Shown here one piece after another: positions 1,235-30,065 of a stretch of DNA of 33,147 nt. Below the pieces are notes generated by a model. That model did no database searches. It saw nothing but the letters and a program-made list of their open reading frames with translations, and had not been told where the DNA came from. The stretch's first letter is position 1, and each line of letters opens with the position of its first letter. The DNA comes from Parcubacteria group bacterium Athens0714_12 (GTDB taxonomy: Bacteria > Patescibacteriota > Patescibacteriia > UBA2591 > VMGY01), in NCBI GenBank assembly GCA_007378955.1, contig VMGY01000008.1, positions 1 to 33,147 of the forward strand, given 5' to 3'. The translations under genes were made by a program, and so were the position numbers.

Positions 1235-1249
1235 TAAGTTATAAGTTAT
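1235..1249 (+). repeat. Heptamer repeat, copy A (taagttataagttat), 3 nt upstream of tRNA-Ile
   Basis: Two TAAGTTA units seen directly; same family as the other copies listed. Confidence 0.6.
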
Positions 1250-1252
1250 CTG

Positions 1253-1328
1253 GGGCATGTAGCTCAGCGGTCAGAGCACTTGACTTATAATCAAGTGGTC
1301 CTGGGTTCAAATCCCAGCATGCCCACCA
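1253..1328 (+). tRNA. tRNA-Ile, anticodon TAT (UAU), CCA encoded
   Basis: Cloverleaf folded by hand: gggcatg/catgccc acceptor, gctc/gagc D stem, cttga-cttataa-tcaag anticodon arm, ctggg-ttcaaat-cccag T arm, then ACCA. Confidence 0.9.
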
Positions 1329-1819: not shown

Positions 1820-1840
1820 TAAGTTATTAGTTATAAGTTA
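1820..1840 (+). repeat. Heptamer repeat, copy B (taagttattagttataagtta)
   Basis: Three 7-nt units seen directly; upstream of rpsT. Confidence 0.65.
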
Positions 1841-6036: not shown

Positions 6037-6111
6037 AATATAAAAAATGATTAAATTATTGATTTTGATTGTTTGCTGCCAGTCCAAGGCTGGCGAACCA
6101 TGAGCTGGCAA

Positions 6112-6150
6112 GTTGTTTGTTATTGGTTGTAAGTTATTAGTTATAAGTTA
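6112..6150 (+). repeat. Heptamer repeat, copy C (gttgtttgttattggttgtaagttattagttataagtta), 3 nt from the tRNA-Cys 3' end
   Basis: Direct reading; tandem 7-nt units. Confidence 0.7.
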
Positions 6151-6153
6151 CCC

Positions 6154-6228
6154 TGGAGGTGCCGGTGGGATTTGAACCCACGAATAACAGTTTTGCAGAC
6201 TGTTGCCTTACCACTTGGCTACGGCACC
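6154..6228 (-). tRNA. tRNA-Cys, anticodon GCA, CCA encoded
   Basis: Reverse complement ggtgccgtagccaagtggtaaggcaacagtctgcaaaactgttattcgtgggttcaaatcccaccggcacctcca. Confidence 0.95.
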
Positions 6229-7926: not shown

Positions 7927-10743
7927 ATGAGTTTAAATTTAAATAAAATTGTTATCAAAGGCGCTCGCGTCCACAATCTCAAGAATATAAGCTTATCTAT
8001 TCCCAAAAATAAATTCGTTATTATCACCGGCATTTCTGGTTCCGGCAAATCTTCATTGGCATTTGACACTATTTACGCCGAGGGCCAAAGAAGATACAGC
8101 GAAAGTCTGTCAAATTACGCCCGCCAATTTTTAAATTTATTAGACAAGCCAGATGTTGACCAAATTGAAGGGCTTTTGCCGACGATTGCCATTAGTCCCA
8201 GGGCAGTTTCGCATAATCCTCGCTCCACCGTGGGCACGGTCACGGAGATTTATGATTATTTGCGTTTGTTTTTTAGTTCCATCGGAAAAATGCATTGCCC
8301 TGATTGCGGACAAGAGCTTTTTTGGAAAAGTTTGGAACAAGTCCAGGAAAAAATTTTTAAAGATTTTTTAAACAAAGAAATTTTTCTTTTGGCGCCCGTC
8401 GTCCAAAATAAGAAAGAAGATATTAAAAATATTCTCGGCGAATTGAAAAAAGCCGATTATTTTAAAGTAAGGTTTGATAGCGTTATTTATTTGATTGAAG
8501 AATTGGAGGCGCGATACATAGATAGTAATAAAAAGCATAATTTAGAAGCCGTCATAGACAAAATAGTTGTTAATAAAAAGAATTATCAGGAGCTGAAAAT
8601 AGCGATTAAAAAAACTTTGGAATTATCTAATGGCTTGGCAATAATTCAGCAAAATAATTCAAACCAAGTAGGCGAAAAAAAAGATTTTTTTTTCAACCAG
8701 CATTATTTTTGTCCCAAATGCAATTTCCAATTTTATAAATTAGAACCGAGAAGTTTTTCTTTTAATAATCCGCAAGGGGCTTGCCCTCATTGCTCCGGTT
8801 TGGGCGAGGTGGCAAAGATAGACCCGTCTTTGCTGGTCGCCAATCCTGATTTGAGCATCGCGCAGGGAGCGGTCAAGCCGTGGTTTAAAATTTATATTCA
8901 GCAAAATAAATTCCTCAAAGCTTTGGAAGATTTGTCCAAGGCGTATAATTTTTCTTTAAACATCGCCGTAAAGAAATTAAAAAAAGAGCATTTAGATGTT
9001 ATTTTATACGGCTGCCGAGAGAAAGGTTTGAAATTTGAAGGGATAATAAATGATTTGGAAAAAAAATATAAAGAAACTCCTTCGGAATATCTGCGAAAAG
9101 AAATTGAAAAATATTTAAGGATTTATCCTTGCCCTCTTTGCCAAGGCAAGCGCTTGAGAAGAGAAATTTTAGCCGTGACGATAGAAGAAAAAAATATTGC
9201 CGATTTGACAAACTTGAGCTTGGAAGAACTTTACAAATTCATAAGCTGGCTGGAAAAAAGATTAAAGGAAAAGGAATTAAAATTTTTTTACCAATGCCTA
9301 AAAGAGATAAAAAACAGGTTAAGCGTTTTAATCCAAATCGGCTTAGATTATTTGACTTTGAATAGAAGCGTTAACACTTTGGCCGGCGGCGAGGCGCAAA
9401 GAATAAAATTGGCCTCTCAAATCAGTTCTCCTTTGAGCGGCTTGATTTATATTTTAGACGAGCCGACAATCGGCCTCCACCAAAAAAATGTCGCTAAGTT
9501 AGTCAGTGTCTTGGAAAAATTAAAAAATTTAGGTAATACGATTATTGCCACTGAGCATGATTCCCAAGTTATTTTGCAAGCTGACCACATTATTGATTTA
9601 GGGCCGGGCGCCGGCGAGCAAGGAGGAGAAATAATCGCGCAAGGCGCGCCTCAAGAAATCAAAAGGAATAAAAAATCTTTAACCGGCGCTTATCTTTCCG
9701 GCCGTTTAAAAATTTTACCCTTAAAAAAAATTCGTTCGGGCAACGGCCAAAAAATTATCATCAAAGGGGCGAGCCAATTTAATTTAAAAAATATTGATGT
9801 GGAAATACCTTTGGGCAGATTAATTTGCTTAACAGGAGTGAGCGGCTCGGGCAAAAGCACATTAATGACGGAAATTTTAGCCAAGGCCTTGGCCCGGAAG
9901 TTTTACAATAATAAGGAAACGCCGGGCAAGCACAAAGAAATTTCAGGCATAAACAATATAGATAAAATGATTAATGTCGACCAGTCGCCGATTGGTCGGA
10001 CGCCGCGTTCCAATCCCGCCACTTATACCGGCGTTTTCAGTTTAATCAGGGATTTTTTCTCCCAATTGCCGGAAGCGAAAATAAAAGGATTTAAGCCCGG
10101 CAATTTCAGTTTTAACGCCGAAGGCAAATGTTTAACCTGCGGCGGCGAAGGTTTTATTAAAATAGGAATGCAGTTTATGCCCAGTGTTTTTATAGAATGC
10201 GATGACTGTCGCGGAAAAAGATATAACAAAGAAACCTTGGAAATTCATCATCAGGATAAAAATATTGCCGATATTTTGGATATGAGCGTTGAGGAATCTT
10301 TAAAGTTTTTTAAGAATATTGAAAATATTTTCTGCAAATTAAAAGTTTTGAGCGAGGTGGGCTTGGATTATTTAAAGCTCGGTCAGCCAGCGCCGGGCCT
10401 TTCAGGCGGCGAAGCGCAAAGAATTAAATTAGCTTCAGAATTATCGCGAAGAAGCACGGGCAAAACTTTATATTTATTGGACGAGCCGACGACTGGCTTG
10501 CATTTTGACGACATAAAAAAACTTTTGGCGGTTTTAAACAGATTAGTGGATATAGGGAATACGGTTTTAGTTATTGAACATAATTTGGAGGTCATAAAAT
10601 GTTGCGATTGGGCGATAGATTTAGGGCCGGAAGGCGGGGATAAAGGCGGTTATTTAATCGGCGCCGGCACGCCCGAAGATTTGATTAAAAATAAAAAAAG
10701 CTACACGGGAAAATACCTCAAACAACTAACAACCTACAACTAA
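7927..10743 (+). CDS. uvrA: Excinuclease ABC subunit A
   Basis: 938 aa; two ABC modules ([43 protein letters not shown]), CPDCG/CPKC zinc motifs, [24 protein letters not shown]. Confidence 0.98.
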
Positions 10744-10757
10744 CAACCTACAACTTA
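10721..10757 (+). repeat. Heptamer repeat, copy D (aacaactaacaacctacaactaacaacctacaactta), spanning the uvrA stop codon
   Basis: Tandem 7-nt units seen directly; UvrA ends ...KQLTTYN* within it. Confidence 0.8.
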
Positions 10758-14860: not shown

Positions 14861-17305
14861 ATGAAGAATGAAAAATTTATTTTGTGGTTTGATGAAATCG
14901 GCATTAAGGATGTTCCTTTAGTGGGAGGCAAGAATGCTTCTTTGGGAGAAATGTACCAAAAGTTAACTAAAAAAGGAATGATAATTCCGAATGGTTTTGC
15001 GGTGACTAGTTATGCTTATTGGCATTTTTTAAATAATTCACAGTCTAAAAACAGTGTCATCCCGAGTGAAATAAAGGATCCCGTTTCATTAAAAGTAAAA
15101 AATTTAAAGCAAGCGATCAAAGAAATTTTGAAAGACTTGGACACGCAGGATATAAAAAATCTTTCTGAAAGGGGCAAGAAAATCAGAGATTTGATTTTAA
15201 AAGCGGAATTTCCCGAGGACTTAAAAAAAGAAATTATTAAAGCGTATAAAAAACTTTCCCAAGAATACGGCAAAGAAAATTTAGATGTCGCGGTGCGAAG
15301 TTCGGCCACGGCTGAAGATTTGGCGACCGCCAGTTTTGCCGGCCAACAGGAAAGTTATTTGAATATCAAAGGCGAGAAACAGATTTTAGAAGCGGTAAAA
15401 AAATGCATTGCTTCTTTGTTTACCAATCGAGCGATTTCTTATCGCCAGGAAATGGGTTTTGATAATTTAAAAGTCGCTTTATCGGTGGCAGTGCAAAAAA
15501 TGGTTCGTTCGGACAAAGCATCTTCCGGCGTGATGTTTTCCTGCGACACGGAAAGCGGTTTTGCCGACGTGGTTTTAATTAATGCCGCTTATGGCTTGGG
15601 AGAAAATGTGGTTAAAGGCAGAGTCAGCCCGGACCAATATTATGTTTTTGAAACAACTTTAAAAAAAGGATTCAAACCGCTCATCGGCAAAACTTTAGGC
15701 GCTAAAGAGATGCGTTTAATTTATAGCGAAGGAAATGAGCCGACAAAAAATTTGCCCGTGCCAAAAAATGAACAGCAAGAATTCGCTTTAAAAGACGAAG
15801 AGGTTTTGACTTTAGCCAAATGGAGCTGTTTGATTGAAGACCATTATAAAAAATCAATGGATATTGAATGGGCGAAAGACGGCTTGGATGGCAAGCTTTA
15901 TATTTTGCAGGCAAGGCCGGAAACTGTCCAAAGCCAAAAAGAAGCCAGTGTTTTAGAAGATTATATTTTGAAAGAAAAAGGAAAAATTCTTTTTACCGGT
16001 TTAAGCGTGGGCAGCAGAATAGGCCAAGGAAAAGTCAATAGAATAATGGAAGTCAAAGATATTAATAAATTCAAAAAAGGTGAAGTTTTGGTGACTGATA
16101 TGACCGACCCCGATTGGGAGCCGGTAATGAAAATCGCCAGCGCGATTATCACTGATTTAGGCGGCAGGACTTCGCACGCGGCCATTGTTTCTAGAGAATT
16201 GGGCGTGCCTTGCGTGGTTGGCGCAAAAAAAGCCAGCCAAATTTTAAAAACAGGCATGGAAGTGACGGTCAGTTGCGCCGAAGGCGAAGAAGGAAAAATT
16301 TATCAAGGGATTTTGCCTTTTGAAATCAAAAAAACTAACATCGCCAATTTAAAAAAGCCAAAAACAAAAATAATGATGAATTTAGGCGAACCGGACCAGG
16401 CTTTTTCCGCGAGATTTATTCCTAACGACGGCGTTGGACTGGCGAGAGAAGAATTTATTATCAATAATTCCATAAAAATTCATCCTTTGGCTTTGATAAA
16501 TTTTTCAAAAATTAAAGACGAAAAAATTAAAAATAAAATTGAAAAATTGACTTTCGGCTATAAAAATAAAACTCAATTTTATATTGATAAATTAGCCGAA
16601 GGAATCGGAAAAATCGGAGCCGCTTTTTATCCGCGCGACGTGATTGTCAGGTTTTCTGATTTTAAAACTAATGAATACGCTAATTTAATCGGCGGCAAAG
16701 AATTTGAGCCGGAAGAAAGCAATCCCATGATCGGCTGGCGGGGCGCTTCGCGCTATTACGACCCTAAATTTAAATCAGCTTTCGGTTTGGAATGCTTAGC
16801 AATTAAAAAAGTCCGCGAGGAGTTCGGTTTGACTAATGTAATCGTAATGATTCCTTTTTGCCGGACAATAGATGAAGGAAAAAAAGTTTTAAAAATTATG
16901 GAAGAGTATGGATTAAAAAGAGGCAAGAACGGATTGCAAGTTTATGTGATGGCGGAAATTCCCGCGAATATTATTTTAGCGGAAGAATTCGCTAAAATTT
17001 TTGACGGTTTTTCCATCGGTTCAAATGATTTAACTCAATTGACTTTGGGATTAGACAGAGATTCACAGATTGTCAGCCATATTTTTAATGAACGCAATCA
17101 AGCAGTTAAAGATTTGATTAAACAGTTAATTCAAGCATCCCATAAATATAAAAGAAAAGTGGGAATTTGCGGCCAGGCACCGAGCGATTATGTGGAATTT
17201 GCCGAGTTTTTAGTTAAACAAGGCATTGATTCTATTTCCTTAAACCCGGATACAATCATTAAAACAACTTTAGCGATCTTGAAGCTGGAGAAAAGAAGCG
17301 GTTGA
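14861..17305 (+). CDS. ppsA: Phosphoenolpyruvate synthase (pyruvate, water dikinase)
   Basis: 814 aa; GGKNASLGEMYQ, VAVRSSATAEDLATASFAGQQESYLN, GGRTSHAAIVSRELGVPCVVGA, GFSIGSNDLTQLTLGLDRDS, VGICGQAPSD. Confidence 0.95.
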   Translation: MKNEKFILWFDEIGIKDVPLVGGKNASLGEMYQKLTKKGMIIPNGFAVTSYAYWHFLNNSQSKNSVIPSEIKDPVSLKVKNLKQAIKEILKDLDTQDIKNLSERGKKIRDLILKAEFPEDLKKEIIKAYKKLSQEYGKENLDVAVRSSATAEDLATASFAGQQESYLNIKGEKQILEAVKKCIASLFTNRAISYRQEMGFDNLKVALSVAVQKMVRSDKASSGVMFSCDTESGFADVVLINAAYGLGENVVKGRVSPDQYYVFETTLKKGFKPLIGKTLGAKEMRLIYSEGNEPTKNLPVPKNEQQEFALKDEEVLTLAKWSCLIEDHYKKSMDIEWAKDGLDGKLYILQARPETVQSQKEASVLEDYILKEKGKILFTGLSVGSRIGQGKVNRIMEVKDINKFKKGEVLVTDMTDPDWEPVMKIASAIITDLGGRTSHAAIVSRELGVPCVVGAKKASQILKTGMEVTVSCAEGEEGKIYQGILPFEIKKTNIANLKKPKTKIMMNLGEPDQAFSARFIPNDGVGLAREEFIINNSIKIHPLALINFSKIKDEKIKNKIEKLTFGYKNKTQFYIDKLAEGIGKIGAAFYPRDVIVRFSDFKTNEYANLIGGKEFEPEESNPMIGWRGASRYYDPKFKSAFGLECLAIKKVREEFGLTNVIVMIPFCRTIDEGKKVLKIMEEYGLKRGKNGLQVYVMAEIPANIILAEEFAKIFDGFSIGSNDLTQLTLGLDRDSQIVSHIFNERNQAVKDLIKQLIQASHKYKRKVGICGQAPSDYVEFAEFLVKQGIDSISLNPDTIIKTTLAILKLEKRSG
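15056..15083 (+). repeat. Half-copy of the palindromic repeat family inside ppsA
   Basis: gtcatcccgagtgaaataaaggatcccg shares GTCATCCCGAG and AAAGGATCCCG with the ileS copy; encodes SVIPSEIKDPVS. Confidence 0.6.
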
Positions 17306-17960: not shown

Positions 17961-17998
17961 TTCTCTAACTTGTTTTTAACTCCGGAAAATAGTAAGAT

Positions 17999-18031
17999 AG
18001 TTGTAAGTTATAAGTTGTTGGTTGTTAGTTA
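17999..18031 (+). repeat. Heptamer repeat, copy E (gttgtaagttataagttgttggttgttagtta), about 4 nt upstream of tRNA-Ser
   Basis: Tandem 7-nt units seen directly. Confidence 0.7.
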
Positions 18032-18035
18032 TTTC

Positions 18036-18124
<89 letters not shown>

Positions 18125-27059: not shown

Positions 27060-30000
27060 ATGGACCAAGAAAAATTTTCTCAATTTGAGGAAGAAATTTT
27101 AAAATACTGGGAGGATAAAAAAATTTTTGCCAAATCTTTAGAGCAAAGAAAAAACGCTCCTCTTTTTAGTTTTTACGACGGCCCGCCTTTTGCTTCCGGT
27201 TCGCCGCATTACGGCCACATTTTAGCCAGCGTGATTAAAGATTCCATTACTCGTTATTGGACAATGAAAGGTTATAAAGTGGAGAGGACGGTCGGCTGGG
27301 ATTGCCATGGCTTGCCCGTAGAAAATTTGGTGGAAAAAAAATTAAATATTAAAACTAAAAAAGAAATCGAATCTTTAGATGAAGGCAAAGAAAAAAGCAT
27401 TGAGAAATTTAATCAAGCCTGCAGAGATTCAATTTATCTTTGTTTGGATGAGTGGCTGAAGACTTTGCGCCGCATCGGCCGCTGGGCTGATTATTCAAAG
27501 CAATACGCGACTTATAAAAACGAATATATAGAATCAGTTTGGTGGGCGTTTAAACAATTATATAATAAAGGATTGATTTATAAAGATTTCAGAGTCGCGC
27601 CTTATTGTCCGCGCTGCGGCACTTCCATTTCTAATTTTGAAGTCAATCTGGGATACCGCGAAGTGGAAGACCAGTCGATTTTTATAAAATTCAAGATTAA
27701 GCGTCATCCCGAGGGAATTTCAGCGACCAAAGGATCCCGTGTCAATCCGCGGGATTGCCGCGTCGCCTCTGGCAAGGCTCTTCGCAATGACATTTTTGAT
27801 GCATATTTTTTGGTTTGGACAACCACGCCTTGGACATTGCCGGCTAATTTATTTTTAGCCGTGGGCGAAGAAGTTGATTATGTCAAAGTTAAATTAAACA
27901 GCGAAAATTTAATTTTAGCCGAAGCTCGTCTGGAAATTTTGGAAGGCGATTATGAAATCATCGAAAAAATTAAAGGCAAGGAATTGCTTGAGGTGGAATA
28001 CGAACCGCTTTTTAAATGGAAGAATCATAAATATAAAATATTGGCAGGCAATGATTTTGTTTCCACAGAAGACGGCACAGGCATTGTCCATATCGCGCCG
28101 GCTTTCGGCGAAATTGACAATCAAATCGGCAAAAAAGAAAATTTAAAAGAGTTTCCGATTAATGTTGATTTGGAAGGAAAAATTATCAAAGGGTTAAATA
28201 TTCCCGGCGAAGGAGAATTTGTCAAAAAAGCGGATGAAAAAATAAAAAAAGATTTAAAAAATCGCGGTTTATTATATAAGGAAGAAAAAATCACCCATAC
28301 TTATCCTTTTTGTTGGCGTTGCGATTCGCCTTTGCTTTATTATCCTTTGGAAAGCTGGTATATCAGGGTGACGGCGCTCAAAGACAAGCTGATTGAAAAT
28401 AATTTGAATTTGGAATTAAAACAAGTAGACGGAAAAATAAAAAAAGGAATTTATTGGATGCCTAATCATTTGAAAGAAGGCCGATTCGGCAAATGGCTTG
28501 AAGGCGTCCGTGATTGGGATATTTCCCGCAGCCGTTATTGGGGCGCGCCGATTCCAATTTGGGAATGCGAAAAGTGCGAAAGCGTAAAAATTGTCGGCAG
28601 TATTAAAGAGTTGGGAAAACAAAAGCCGGAAGATTTGCATCGGCCATATATTGACCAAATAGAATTTACTTGCGAATGCGGCGGAAAAATGAAAAGGGTG
28701 GAAGGTGTTTTTGATTGTTGGCTTGAATCAGGCTCAATGCCTTTTGCCCAATATCATTATCCTTTTGAAAATAAAGAAAAATTTGAGCAAGGATTCCCCG
28801 CTGATTTTATCGCCGAGGGATTGGACCAAACGCGCGGCTGGTTTTATACTTTGCATGTTTTAGCCGTGGCAATCTTTGAAAAACCGGCTTTTAAAAATGT
28901 GATTGTCAATGGTTTGATTTTAGCGGCGGATGGAAAAAAATTAAGCAAGCGCTTAAAAAATTATACCCCGCCGGAAGAAATATTTAACAAATACGGCGTT
29001 GACGCTTTGCGTTATTTTTTATTAACTTCGGCGCCGATGGGCGAGGATTGCCGTTTTTCCAGCCAGCAAGTGGAAGAAACTTTCCGCAAAATAATTATCA
29101 TTTTATGGAATGTTTATACTTTTTATGAAATGCATGGCGCGGGGCAATTGACAACTGACAATCGACAACTGACAACCCCTGAAAATATTTTAGACCAATG
29201 GATAATCGCGAAATTAAATCTTTTAATTAAAGAAACAACGCAATATTTAGATAACTATGATTTGAATAAAGCAACTCGCCTTTTGGCTGATTTTGTCAAT
29301 GAATTGTCAACCTGGTATTTAAGAAGAAGCCGGACAAGATTTAAAAGCGAGGAGCAAAAAGAGCGGGGAGAAGTTTCAGCGACCCTTCATTATGTTTTAT
29401 TGAATTTGACCAAATTGCTGTCCCCTTTCATTGTTTTTTTGAGCGATGTTATTTACCAGAAAATTTCTTCAAACAAAGAATCAGTCCATTTGGAAGATTG
29501 GCCTCTGGCTGACGAGAATTTAATCAATCAAAAACTTTTAGAAGAAATGGAATTAGTCAAAGAAGTGGTGGAATTAGGATTAGCGGCCAGGGCGGAAGCG
29601 AAAATAAAAATCAGGCAGCCCTTAGGGAACTTACAACTTACAACTTACAACTCACAACTTAATGAACAATTAATTAATTTAATAAAAGACGAATTAAATA
29701 TTAAAAAAGTTAATCTTGTCAAAAAAATAAAAAAAGAGGGAGTGGTGGTGAAAGAAAATAATAAAATTAAAATCGCCTTGGAAACGGCGATTACGCCCGA
29801 ATTGAAACAAGAAGGAATGATAAGGGAATTAATCAGGCAGATAAATTCTTTTAGAAAAGAGCTGAAATTAACTGTTAAAGATTCAGTCAATATTTATTTG
29901 CAGACAGAAAGCAAGGAATTAAAAGAAGCCGTGAAAAAATATTATTCGTCATTGCTTAAAAATGTTTTGGCCAAAGAGATTAAATTTGAGAAAAAAGAAT

Positions 30001-30065
30001 CAGCCCACCAAAAAGAATTGGAGATTGAAAAAATAAAAGTTTTTATTAATATAGAAAAAATTTAG
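27060..30065 (+). CDS. ileS: Isoleucyl-tRNA synthetase (IleRS2/eukaryote-like type)
   Basis: PPFASGSPHYGHILASVIKD (HIGH), WDCHGLPVE, TTPWTLPANL, GKKLSKRLKNYTPP (KMSKS). Confidence 0.97.
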   Translation: MDQEKFSQFEEEILKYWEDKKIFAKSLEQRKNAPLFSFYDGPPFASGSPHYGHILASVIKDSITRYWTMKGYKVERTVGWDCHGLPVENLVEKKLNIKTKKEIESLDEGKEKSIEKFNQACRDSIYLCLDEWLKTLRRIGRWADYSKQYATYKNEYIESVWWAFKQLYNKGLIYKDFRVAPYCPRCGTSISNFEVNLGYREVEDQSIFIKFKIKRHPEGISATKGSRVNPRDCRVASGKALRNDIFDAYFLVWTTTPWTLPANLFLAVGEEVDYVKVKLNSENLILAEARLEILEGDYEIIEKIKGKELLEVEYEPLFKWKNHKYKILAGNDFVSTEDGTGIVHIAPAFGEIDNQIGKKENLKEFPINVDLEGKIIKGLNIPGEGEFVKKADEKIKKDLKNRGLLYKEEKITHTYPFCWRCDSPLLYYPLESWYIRVTALKDKLIENNLNLELKQVDGKIKKGIYWMPNHLKEGRFGKWLEGVRDWDISRSRYWGAPIPIWECEKCESVKIVGSIKELGKQKPEDLHRPYIDQIEFTCECGGKMKRVEGVFDCWLESGSMPFAQYHYPFENKEKFEQGFPADFIAEGLDQTRGWFYTLHVLAVAIFEKPAFKNVIVNGLILAADGKKLSKRLKNYTPPEEIFNKYGVDALRYFLLTSAPMGEDCRFSSQQVEETFRKIIIILWNVYTFYEMHGAGQLTTDNRQLTTPENILDQWIIAKLNLLIKETTQYLDNYDLNKATRLLADFVNELSTWYLRRSRTRFKSEEQKERGEVSATLHYVLLNLTKLLSPFIVFLSDVIYQKISSNKESVHLEDWPLADENLINQKLLEEMELVKEVVELGLAARAEAKIKIRQPLGNLQLTTYNSQLNEQLINLIKDELNIKKVNLVKKIKKEGVVVKENNKIKIALETAITPELKQEGMIRELIRQINSFRKELKLTVKDSVNIYLQTESKELKEAVKKYYSSLLKNVLAKEIKFEKKESAHQKELEIEKIKVFINIEKI
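27703..27791 (+). repeat. In-frame palindromic repeat insertion within ileS
   Basis: gtcatcccgag...cttcgcaatgac; last 41 nt match 33/41 with 12110-12150 by hand count; encodes RHPEGISATKGSRVNPRDCRVASGKALRNDIF. Confidence 0.85.
29146..29177 (+). repeat. Heptamer repeat, copy F, in frame within ileS
   Basis: caattgacaactgacaatcgacaactgacaac encodes QLTTDNRQLTT. Confidence 0.75.
29628..29660 (+). repeat. Heptamer repeat, copy G, in frame within ileS
   Basis: aacttacaacttacaacttacaactcacaactt encodes [11 protein letters not shown]. Confidence 0.75.

Follow-up and report, generated by a model that had tools for sequence, protein, structure and literature searches.

Outward-pointing heptamer arrays at tRNA gene ends, with further copies inside protein genes, in a Patescibacteria genome

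This study revealed that tandem arrays of a degenerate heptamer, YAACYNA, have their main site in the first bases outside tRNA and tmRNA genes, where they always point outward. The period of seven, the place at tRNA gene ends and the outward polarity recur across lineages while the unit differs. The arrays in ileS and at the end of uvrA, the subject of a first-pass annotation of this DNA, are minority copies of this genome-wide family, whose arrays have about five units. The pattern suggests that some process operates at the ends of tRNA genes, seven bases at a step. We favour a heptamer process that keeps its period, varies between lineages and is linked to the ends of tRNA genes, the mechanism of which we infer from the arrangement of the arrays.

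Results

In the window, that is, the whole 33,147-nt stretch of DNA that was analysed, two heptamer arrays were found in ileS and a third at the uvrA terminus, just where the first-pass annotation had placed them. The isoleucyl-tRNA synthetase gene ileS (27060..30065, + strand; Pfam PF00133 and PF08264) hosts array 1 at 29145..29179 (+), composed of CAATTGA, CAACTGA, CAATCGA, CAACTGA and CAACCCC, and array 2 at 29627..29661 (+), composed of GAACTTA, CAACTTA, CAACTTA, CAACTCA and CAACTTA. Array 1 encodes QLTTDNRQLTTP and is located in a variable linker ahead of the anticodon-binding domain. The QLTTxN-type peptides that had been assigned to the ileS arrays are their translations, and UvrA (gene at 7927..10743, +) ends with QLTTYN. 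The claim that the arrays are read through is correct for ileS only: the uvrA array (10723..10757, +) spans the stop codon and the spacer ahead of the following gene and supplies both the final residues QLTTYN and the TAA stop (within CAACTAA), so that it terminates UvrA. As a separate observation, ileS contains at 27697-27790 an extra stretch of approximately 25 residues (KRHPEGISATKGSRVNPRDCRVASGKALRNDIF), the DNA of which begins with CGTCATCCCGAGGGA and is reminiscent of dispersed palindromic repeats; its start recurs as a near copy at 15056-15069.

Four further arrays of the window, all on the minus strand, had been overlooked, and three of them abut tRNA genes. A two-unit array (1235..1248, -) is situated at the 5' end of tRNA-Ile(tat) (1253..1328, +), a six-unit array (6109..6150, -) at the 3' end of tRNA-Cys(gca) (6154..6228, -), and a five-unit array (17997..18031, -) at the 5' end of tRNA-Ser(gga) (18036..18123, +). 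All three point outward, and each of the window's three tRNA genes has one array. The fourth array (1820..1840, -), with the units TAACTTA, TAACTAA and TAACTTA, is intergenic and adjoins no known RNA gene.

In the draft assembly as a whole (27 contigs totalling 827 kb, both strands), the three-unit YAACYNA pattern gave 61 matches, merging into 29 separate arrays with at least three perfect units, and the reversed three-unit pattern gave none in the same 827 kb. The two-unit pattern used for scans, CAACYNACAACYNA, was matched with at most one mismatch 17 times in the window, where dinucleotide shuffles predict 0.16. Its exact form was found 42 times in the genome and its reversed control not at all. 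A chance origin of the heptamer arrays is thereby excluded.

The composition of the unit was determined from 184 units in 36 arrays. Near-fixed bases occupy positions 2, 3, 4 and 7 (A, A, C and A); C or T stands at position 1, T predominates at position 5 and position 6 varies freely, which gives the degenerate consensus YAACYNA; CAACTTA, TAACTTA and TAACTAA are the commonest units. Half of the arrays have exactly five units, and 33 of the 36 have between three and six. Neighbouring units are less alike than expected, positions 5-6 being identical in 21 of 148 pairs versus 30.9 expected from shuffling within arrays (p 0.004), and units two apart match above expectation (p 0.004, whole units), resulting in a 14-nt alternation. 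As neighbouring units are unlike and alternate units alike, slippage by single units and target-site duplication both fit poorly. The acceptor stem of a tRNA is likewise 7 bp long; the arrays bear no apparent relation to acceptor stems in sequence.

For the survey of tRNA genes, ARAGORN was run on the array stretches, its results were combined with the 46 tRNAs that Rfam identified genome-wide, and the stretches around the remaining tRNAs were added. At least one array was present at 21 of the 47 tRNA and tmRNA genes. All 24 arrays at these gene ends point outward. They start at a distance of 3-12 nt, 14 of them 5' and 10 of them 3' of the gene, and read TAACTTA... in the direction leaving the gene, the strand differing accordingly; two arrays that seemed to point inward are outward arrays of a neighbouring tRNA gene. 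Eighteen of the 21 genes carry arrays on one side and three on both. Among the 29 strict arrays, 18 are separated from a tRNA or tmRNA gene by no more than 12 nt, for which the probability by chance is below 1e-27 even when arrays are confined to noncoding DNA, assumed to make up 12% of the genome. An Rfam search of the stretches around the remaining intergenic arrays gave tRNAs only and no other noncoding RNA. Hairpins upstream of the non-tRNA arrays were not unusual (mean z -0.1); RNA hairpins as general starters of arrays were consequently rejected, and a general structure-triggered version of the process is unsupported. The arrays were also considered as part of a larger mobile element, a candidate that was discarded, the BLAST similarity between flanks being mostly tRNA gene sequence and overlapping windows.

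The relatives used for comparison, designated here by G numbers (this genome being G000), all belong to other genera and families. Placement of this genome in the Patescibacteria is based on these relatives and on its genes. In G003, from another family of the order, YAACYNA arrays at tRNA genes point outward in seven cases and inward in none; its stretches were picked because they bear arrays, so that their polarity is informative and their frequency is not. In G021, from a third family, tRNA genes picked by score, independently of arrays, carry a different unit, TAGCTTN (near variants counted), outward in ten cases and inward in none. The marked tRNA isotypes differ between G000 and G003. 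When periods of 5 to 15 were tested, only 7 (and 14) was enriched, with 12 period-7 runs versus at most one for the others in this genome, and 46 versus at most four, 14 excepted, in stretches of 123 loci from relatives, both sets consisting partly of stretches fetched for their arrays. Once the array-chosen stretches were removed from the relatives, 42 period-7 runs were still present, with many different units and most of them within ORFs; the units seen include CAACTTA, CAAGCTA, AAAATTC and CAAATCC. Period-7 runs occur in 18 of 94 tRNA flanks in this genome, 5 of 30 in G003, 14 of 42 in G021 and 6 of 48 in G009, which shares its genus with G021, G017 and G023. Few were seen in G026 and G056, and none in the tRNA flanks of G002 and G054, which belong to the same class. 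Other periods gave almost nothing in the flanks of any genome tested.

Inside protein genes, seven ORF arrays were identified genome-wide, in mechanically called ORFs: two in ileS and one each in leuS, pheT, ksgA, an nrdG-type radical SAM gene and a PfkB-type kinase gene. Arrays cover the stop codons of three further genes, namely uvrA, secF and a solute-binding protein gene. The first-pass annotation had pointed out that a CAACTTA tract is free of stops in all three frames (QLTTYNL) and that its complement carries TAA, which is correct, and had expected the open orientation within genes; genome-wide, all seven ORF arrays are in the sense orientation (chance 1/128). Given the stop codons of the complementary orientation, purifying selection is sufficient to produce this strand bias. 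The polarity at tRNA genes, unlike the bias within genes, is not accounted for by coding. The proposed tolerance of phase applies in part: ORF arrays do occur in phases 0, 1 and 2, but an insert of 7n bases shifts the downstream frame unless n is a multiple of three. Aminoacyl-tRNA synthetase genes host four of the seven ORF arrays (binomial 2e-4, with these genes assumed to make up approximately 5% of coding sequence), an excess that was noticed post hoc.

The loops that bear the arrays were compared with 28-29 homologs per protein from the class. The residues encoded by the arrays are not common to these homologs. The arrays encode 11-12 residues, but the loops differ from the homolog median by only +2 and +1 residues in IleRS, -1 in KsgA, +1 in LeuRS and +5 in PheT. 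Both IleRS loops are thus as long as those of array-free homologs, and a net insertion in ileS is not supported. At the same loops, other genera carry other heptamers: AGAATTC in LeuRS of G017, AAAATTC in PheT of G002, and CAAGCTA in both KsgA of G026 and IleRS of G021. The array-bearing loops of IleRS, LeuRS, PheT and KsgA are places tolerant of change. The arrays of different lineages were not found to be orthologous and in register at one loop, offset 0 being best in only two of four pairs.

Array growth within genes does occur, given that the heptamer array in PheT of G021 exceeds that in PheT of its congener G017, with which it is 76% identical, by 39 in-frame bases. Length-neutral overwriting may be a general rule, since the sites of this genome are near-neutral relative to distant homologs, but the 39-nt difference between the congeneric PheT genes tells against it. 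Two observations on the host proteins may be recorded here. The IleRS linker that holds array 1 contains PPRSPFDKGEEGVVSPSLVKGRVGVGF in G052 (L075) and an NNT triplet repeat in G007 (L079), so that, counting this genome, one IleRS loop is home to several kinds of repeat DNA. PheT of this genome (L042:7017-9818, -, contig C12) includes an NlpC/P60 peptidase-like domain (residues ~483-595, PF00877) between its B1 and B5 regions; PheT of some relatives aligns through this domain (G010) and that of others skips it.

Discussion

The arrangement of the arrays would be explained by a DNA-level process that writes or spreads seven-nucleotide units, starting preferentially at the ends of tRNA genes, on either side. 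Such a process may itself be free of tRNA-specific functional constraint, because the array-bearing tRNAs change between lineages. Copies would also arise away from tRNA genes, and those in protein genes would survive purifying selection when they have the stop-free orientation, lie in tolerant loops and bring a net length change divisible by three, which fits the seven of seven sense copies. We consider this whole reading, a writing process with a seven-nucleotide step at tRNA ends and selection filtering the gene copies, evenly poised between being right and being wrong. Its extension to a group of Patescibacteria, in which a DNA-writing process of fixed seven-nucleotide step would keep its period and outward polarity, vary its word and spill into loops of essential proteins, is offered tentatively and is, in our estimation, somewhat improbable. 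Against this reading, neighbouring units differ and alternate ones match more often than by chance, so that simple copying of one unit would not produce the arrays. A resident RVT_1 reverse transcriptase is unlikely to be the writer, since an RVT_1 profile search gave no match in this genome; telomerase-like or otherwise reverse-transcribed repeats were discarded as a candidate on the same grounds. The search gave no match in G009 or G021 either, and G003, which shares the YAACYNA unit, has one RVT_1 gene (G003:C7:36261-36869).

The outward orientation at tRNA genes could equally reflect selection for function. Arrays would then act in the leader or trailer of the tRNA, through leader-trailer pairing, as a protein-binding boundary, or as a termination or processing signal, and the copies in protein genes would be accidental. 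The perfect polarity to tRNA and tmRNA genes in three lineages would be expected, genes with arrays on both sides have leader and trailer arrays that are complementary by construction, and unit positions 2-4 and 7 are far more conserved than position 6. Nevertheless, arrays flank both sides in just 3 of the 21 genes that bear any, over half of the tRNA genes have no array, arrays are wholly absent from two genomes of the class, G000 and G003 differ in the tRNAs that are marked, and the unit varies between lineages. Selected function, in all its variants together, is therefore rather unlikely in our view. The writing process is moderately preferred to a function in tRNA processing because arrays are one-sided at 18 of 21 genes and absent from the majority, the marked isotypes differ from those of G003, and some relatives are free of arrays.

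The remaining explanations leave more of the evidence unaccounted for. Some eukaryotic retroelements target tRNA flanks, and a transposable element with this preference and 7-bp target-site duplications could build tandem units by repeated insertion and excision, in line with a constant seven-nucleotide period of lineage-specific sequence. Transposon excision has also been raised for the TAACTGA repeats (MacGregor 2015, PMC4679880). However, target-site duplication would give identical neighbours, which are rarer here than expected, and no flanking element was seen beside the arrays, the similarity between flanks being largely that of overlapping windows or tRNA sequence; we regard a transposon as quite unlikely. 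The view that the repeat invades ORFs as such, by phase-tolerant insertion, was the theme of the first-pass annotation and draws on the openness of all three frames and the seven of seven sense copies. It has become very improbable: 18 of the 29 strict arrays adjoin tRNA or tmRNA genes and only five lie inside ORFs, the loops at the five sites compared exceed the homolog median by 5 residues at most, and 7n bases preserve the frame only one time in three. Ordinary simple-sequence slippage, in which chance seeds grow locally and are tolerated in AT-rich spacers beside tRNA genes, is the least probable of the explanations considered. It can refer to the change in coding arrays, such as the 39 additional bases in PheT of G021, and to an intergenic array that, in a pair of genomes 97% identical, is visibly more diverged than the sequence on either side of it. 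It cannot explain why dozens of sites share one consensus, why the polarity relative to tRNA genes is fixed or why the period is 7 only, and the shared consensus and polarity had already disfavoured it.

Earlier records of heptamer tandem repeats come from scattered bacteria and follow no common rule. A period, place and polarity that stay fixed as the unit changes constitute such a rule and direct attention to tRNA gene ends; this rule also implies that the machinery, rather than the sequence, would be conserved. The copies in protein genes also illustrate a route by which non-genic repeat DNA gives residues to essential enzymes. Segments such as QLTTYN, YKLQATS and KIQNSKFK in these synthetases should accordingly not be taken for ancestral protein sequence.

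With regard to known systems, a literature search for heptamer repeats flanking tRNA genes found no paper, and as it covered few subscription papers, this is weak evidence of novelty. Rickettsia palindromic elements are also repeat DNA read in frame within conserved proteins, but they are longer and palindromic, whereas the present arrays are non-palindromic tandem heptamers. Repeats written by a reverse transcriptase require RVT_1, which is missing from three of the four genomes searched (G000, G009 and G021) and represented by one gene in G003. Arrays built from target-site duplications would have identical neighbours, in contrast to the 21 of 148 (30.9 expected) counted here. The repeats of the Nostoc trnL intron (2002 study, as cited in PMC3488679) are likewise described as degenerate, seven nucleotides long, linked to a tRNA, variable in copy number and forming paired arms; they are, however, placed there in the P6b arm of one group I intron in tRNA-Leu(UAA), and the present arrays lie outside the mature ends of tRNAs of many isotypes. 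The tandem repeats of Bacillus and Paenibacillus (Subirana and Messeguer 2021, PMC8161180) share a constant size, a sequence that varies between families and species, and an origin left unexplained, and they are not known to show tRNA linkage or polarity. The fixed length with unrelated sequences has its counterpart here (periods 7 and 14 only), but those repeats measure 52 or 20-21 nt rather than 7 nt.

The closest resemblance is to the TAACTGA direct repeats of Beggiatoaceae, some Cyanobacteria and Bacteroidetes (MacGregor 2015, PMC4679880). These are also dispersed heptamer direct repeats in sets of 2-6 copies, mostly intergenic, with stops in one orientation and an open reading in the other, and a few of them lie inside ORFs or over stop codons. 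TAACTGA itself fits the YAACYNA consensus, and 33 of the 36 present arrays have three to six units. In contrast, the TAACTGA heptamer is single and invariant, and related heptamers are rarely tandem, whereas the present unit is degenerate and lineage-variable, with TAACTGA accounting for 3 of 184 units. The TAACTGA repeats are located for the most part in forward orientation a few nucleotides upstream of the start codons of protein genes, and that paper mentions tRNA only through the name of pheS; the present arrays point outward at tRNA ends, with 18 of the 29 strict arrays at tRNA or tmRNA genes. Given that both unit and location differ, we place the present arrays outside the TAACTGA repeats, which are nevertheless their nearest described counterpart.
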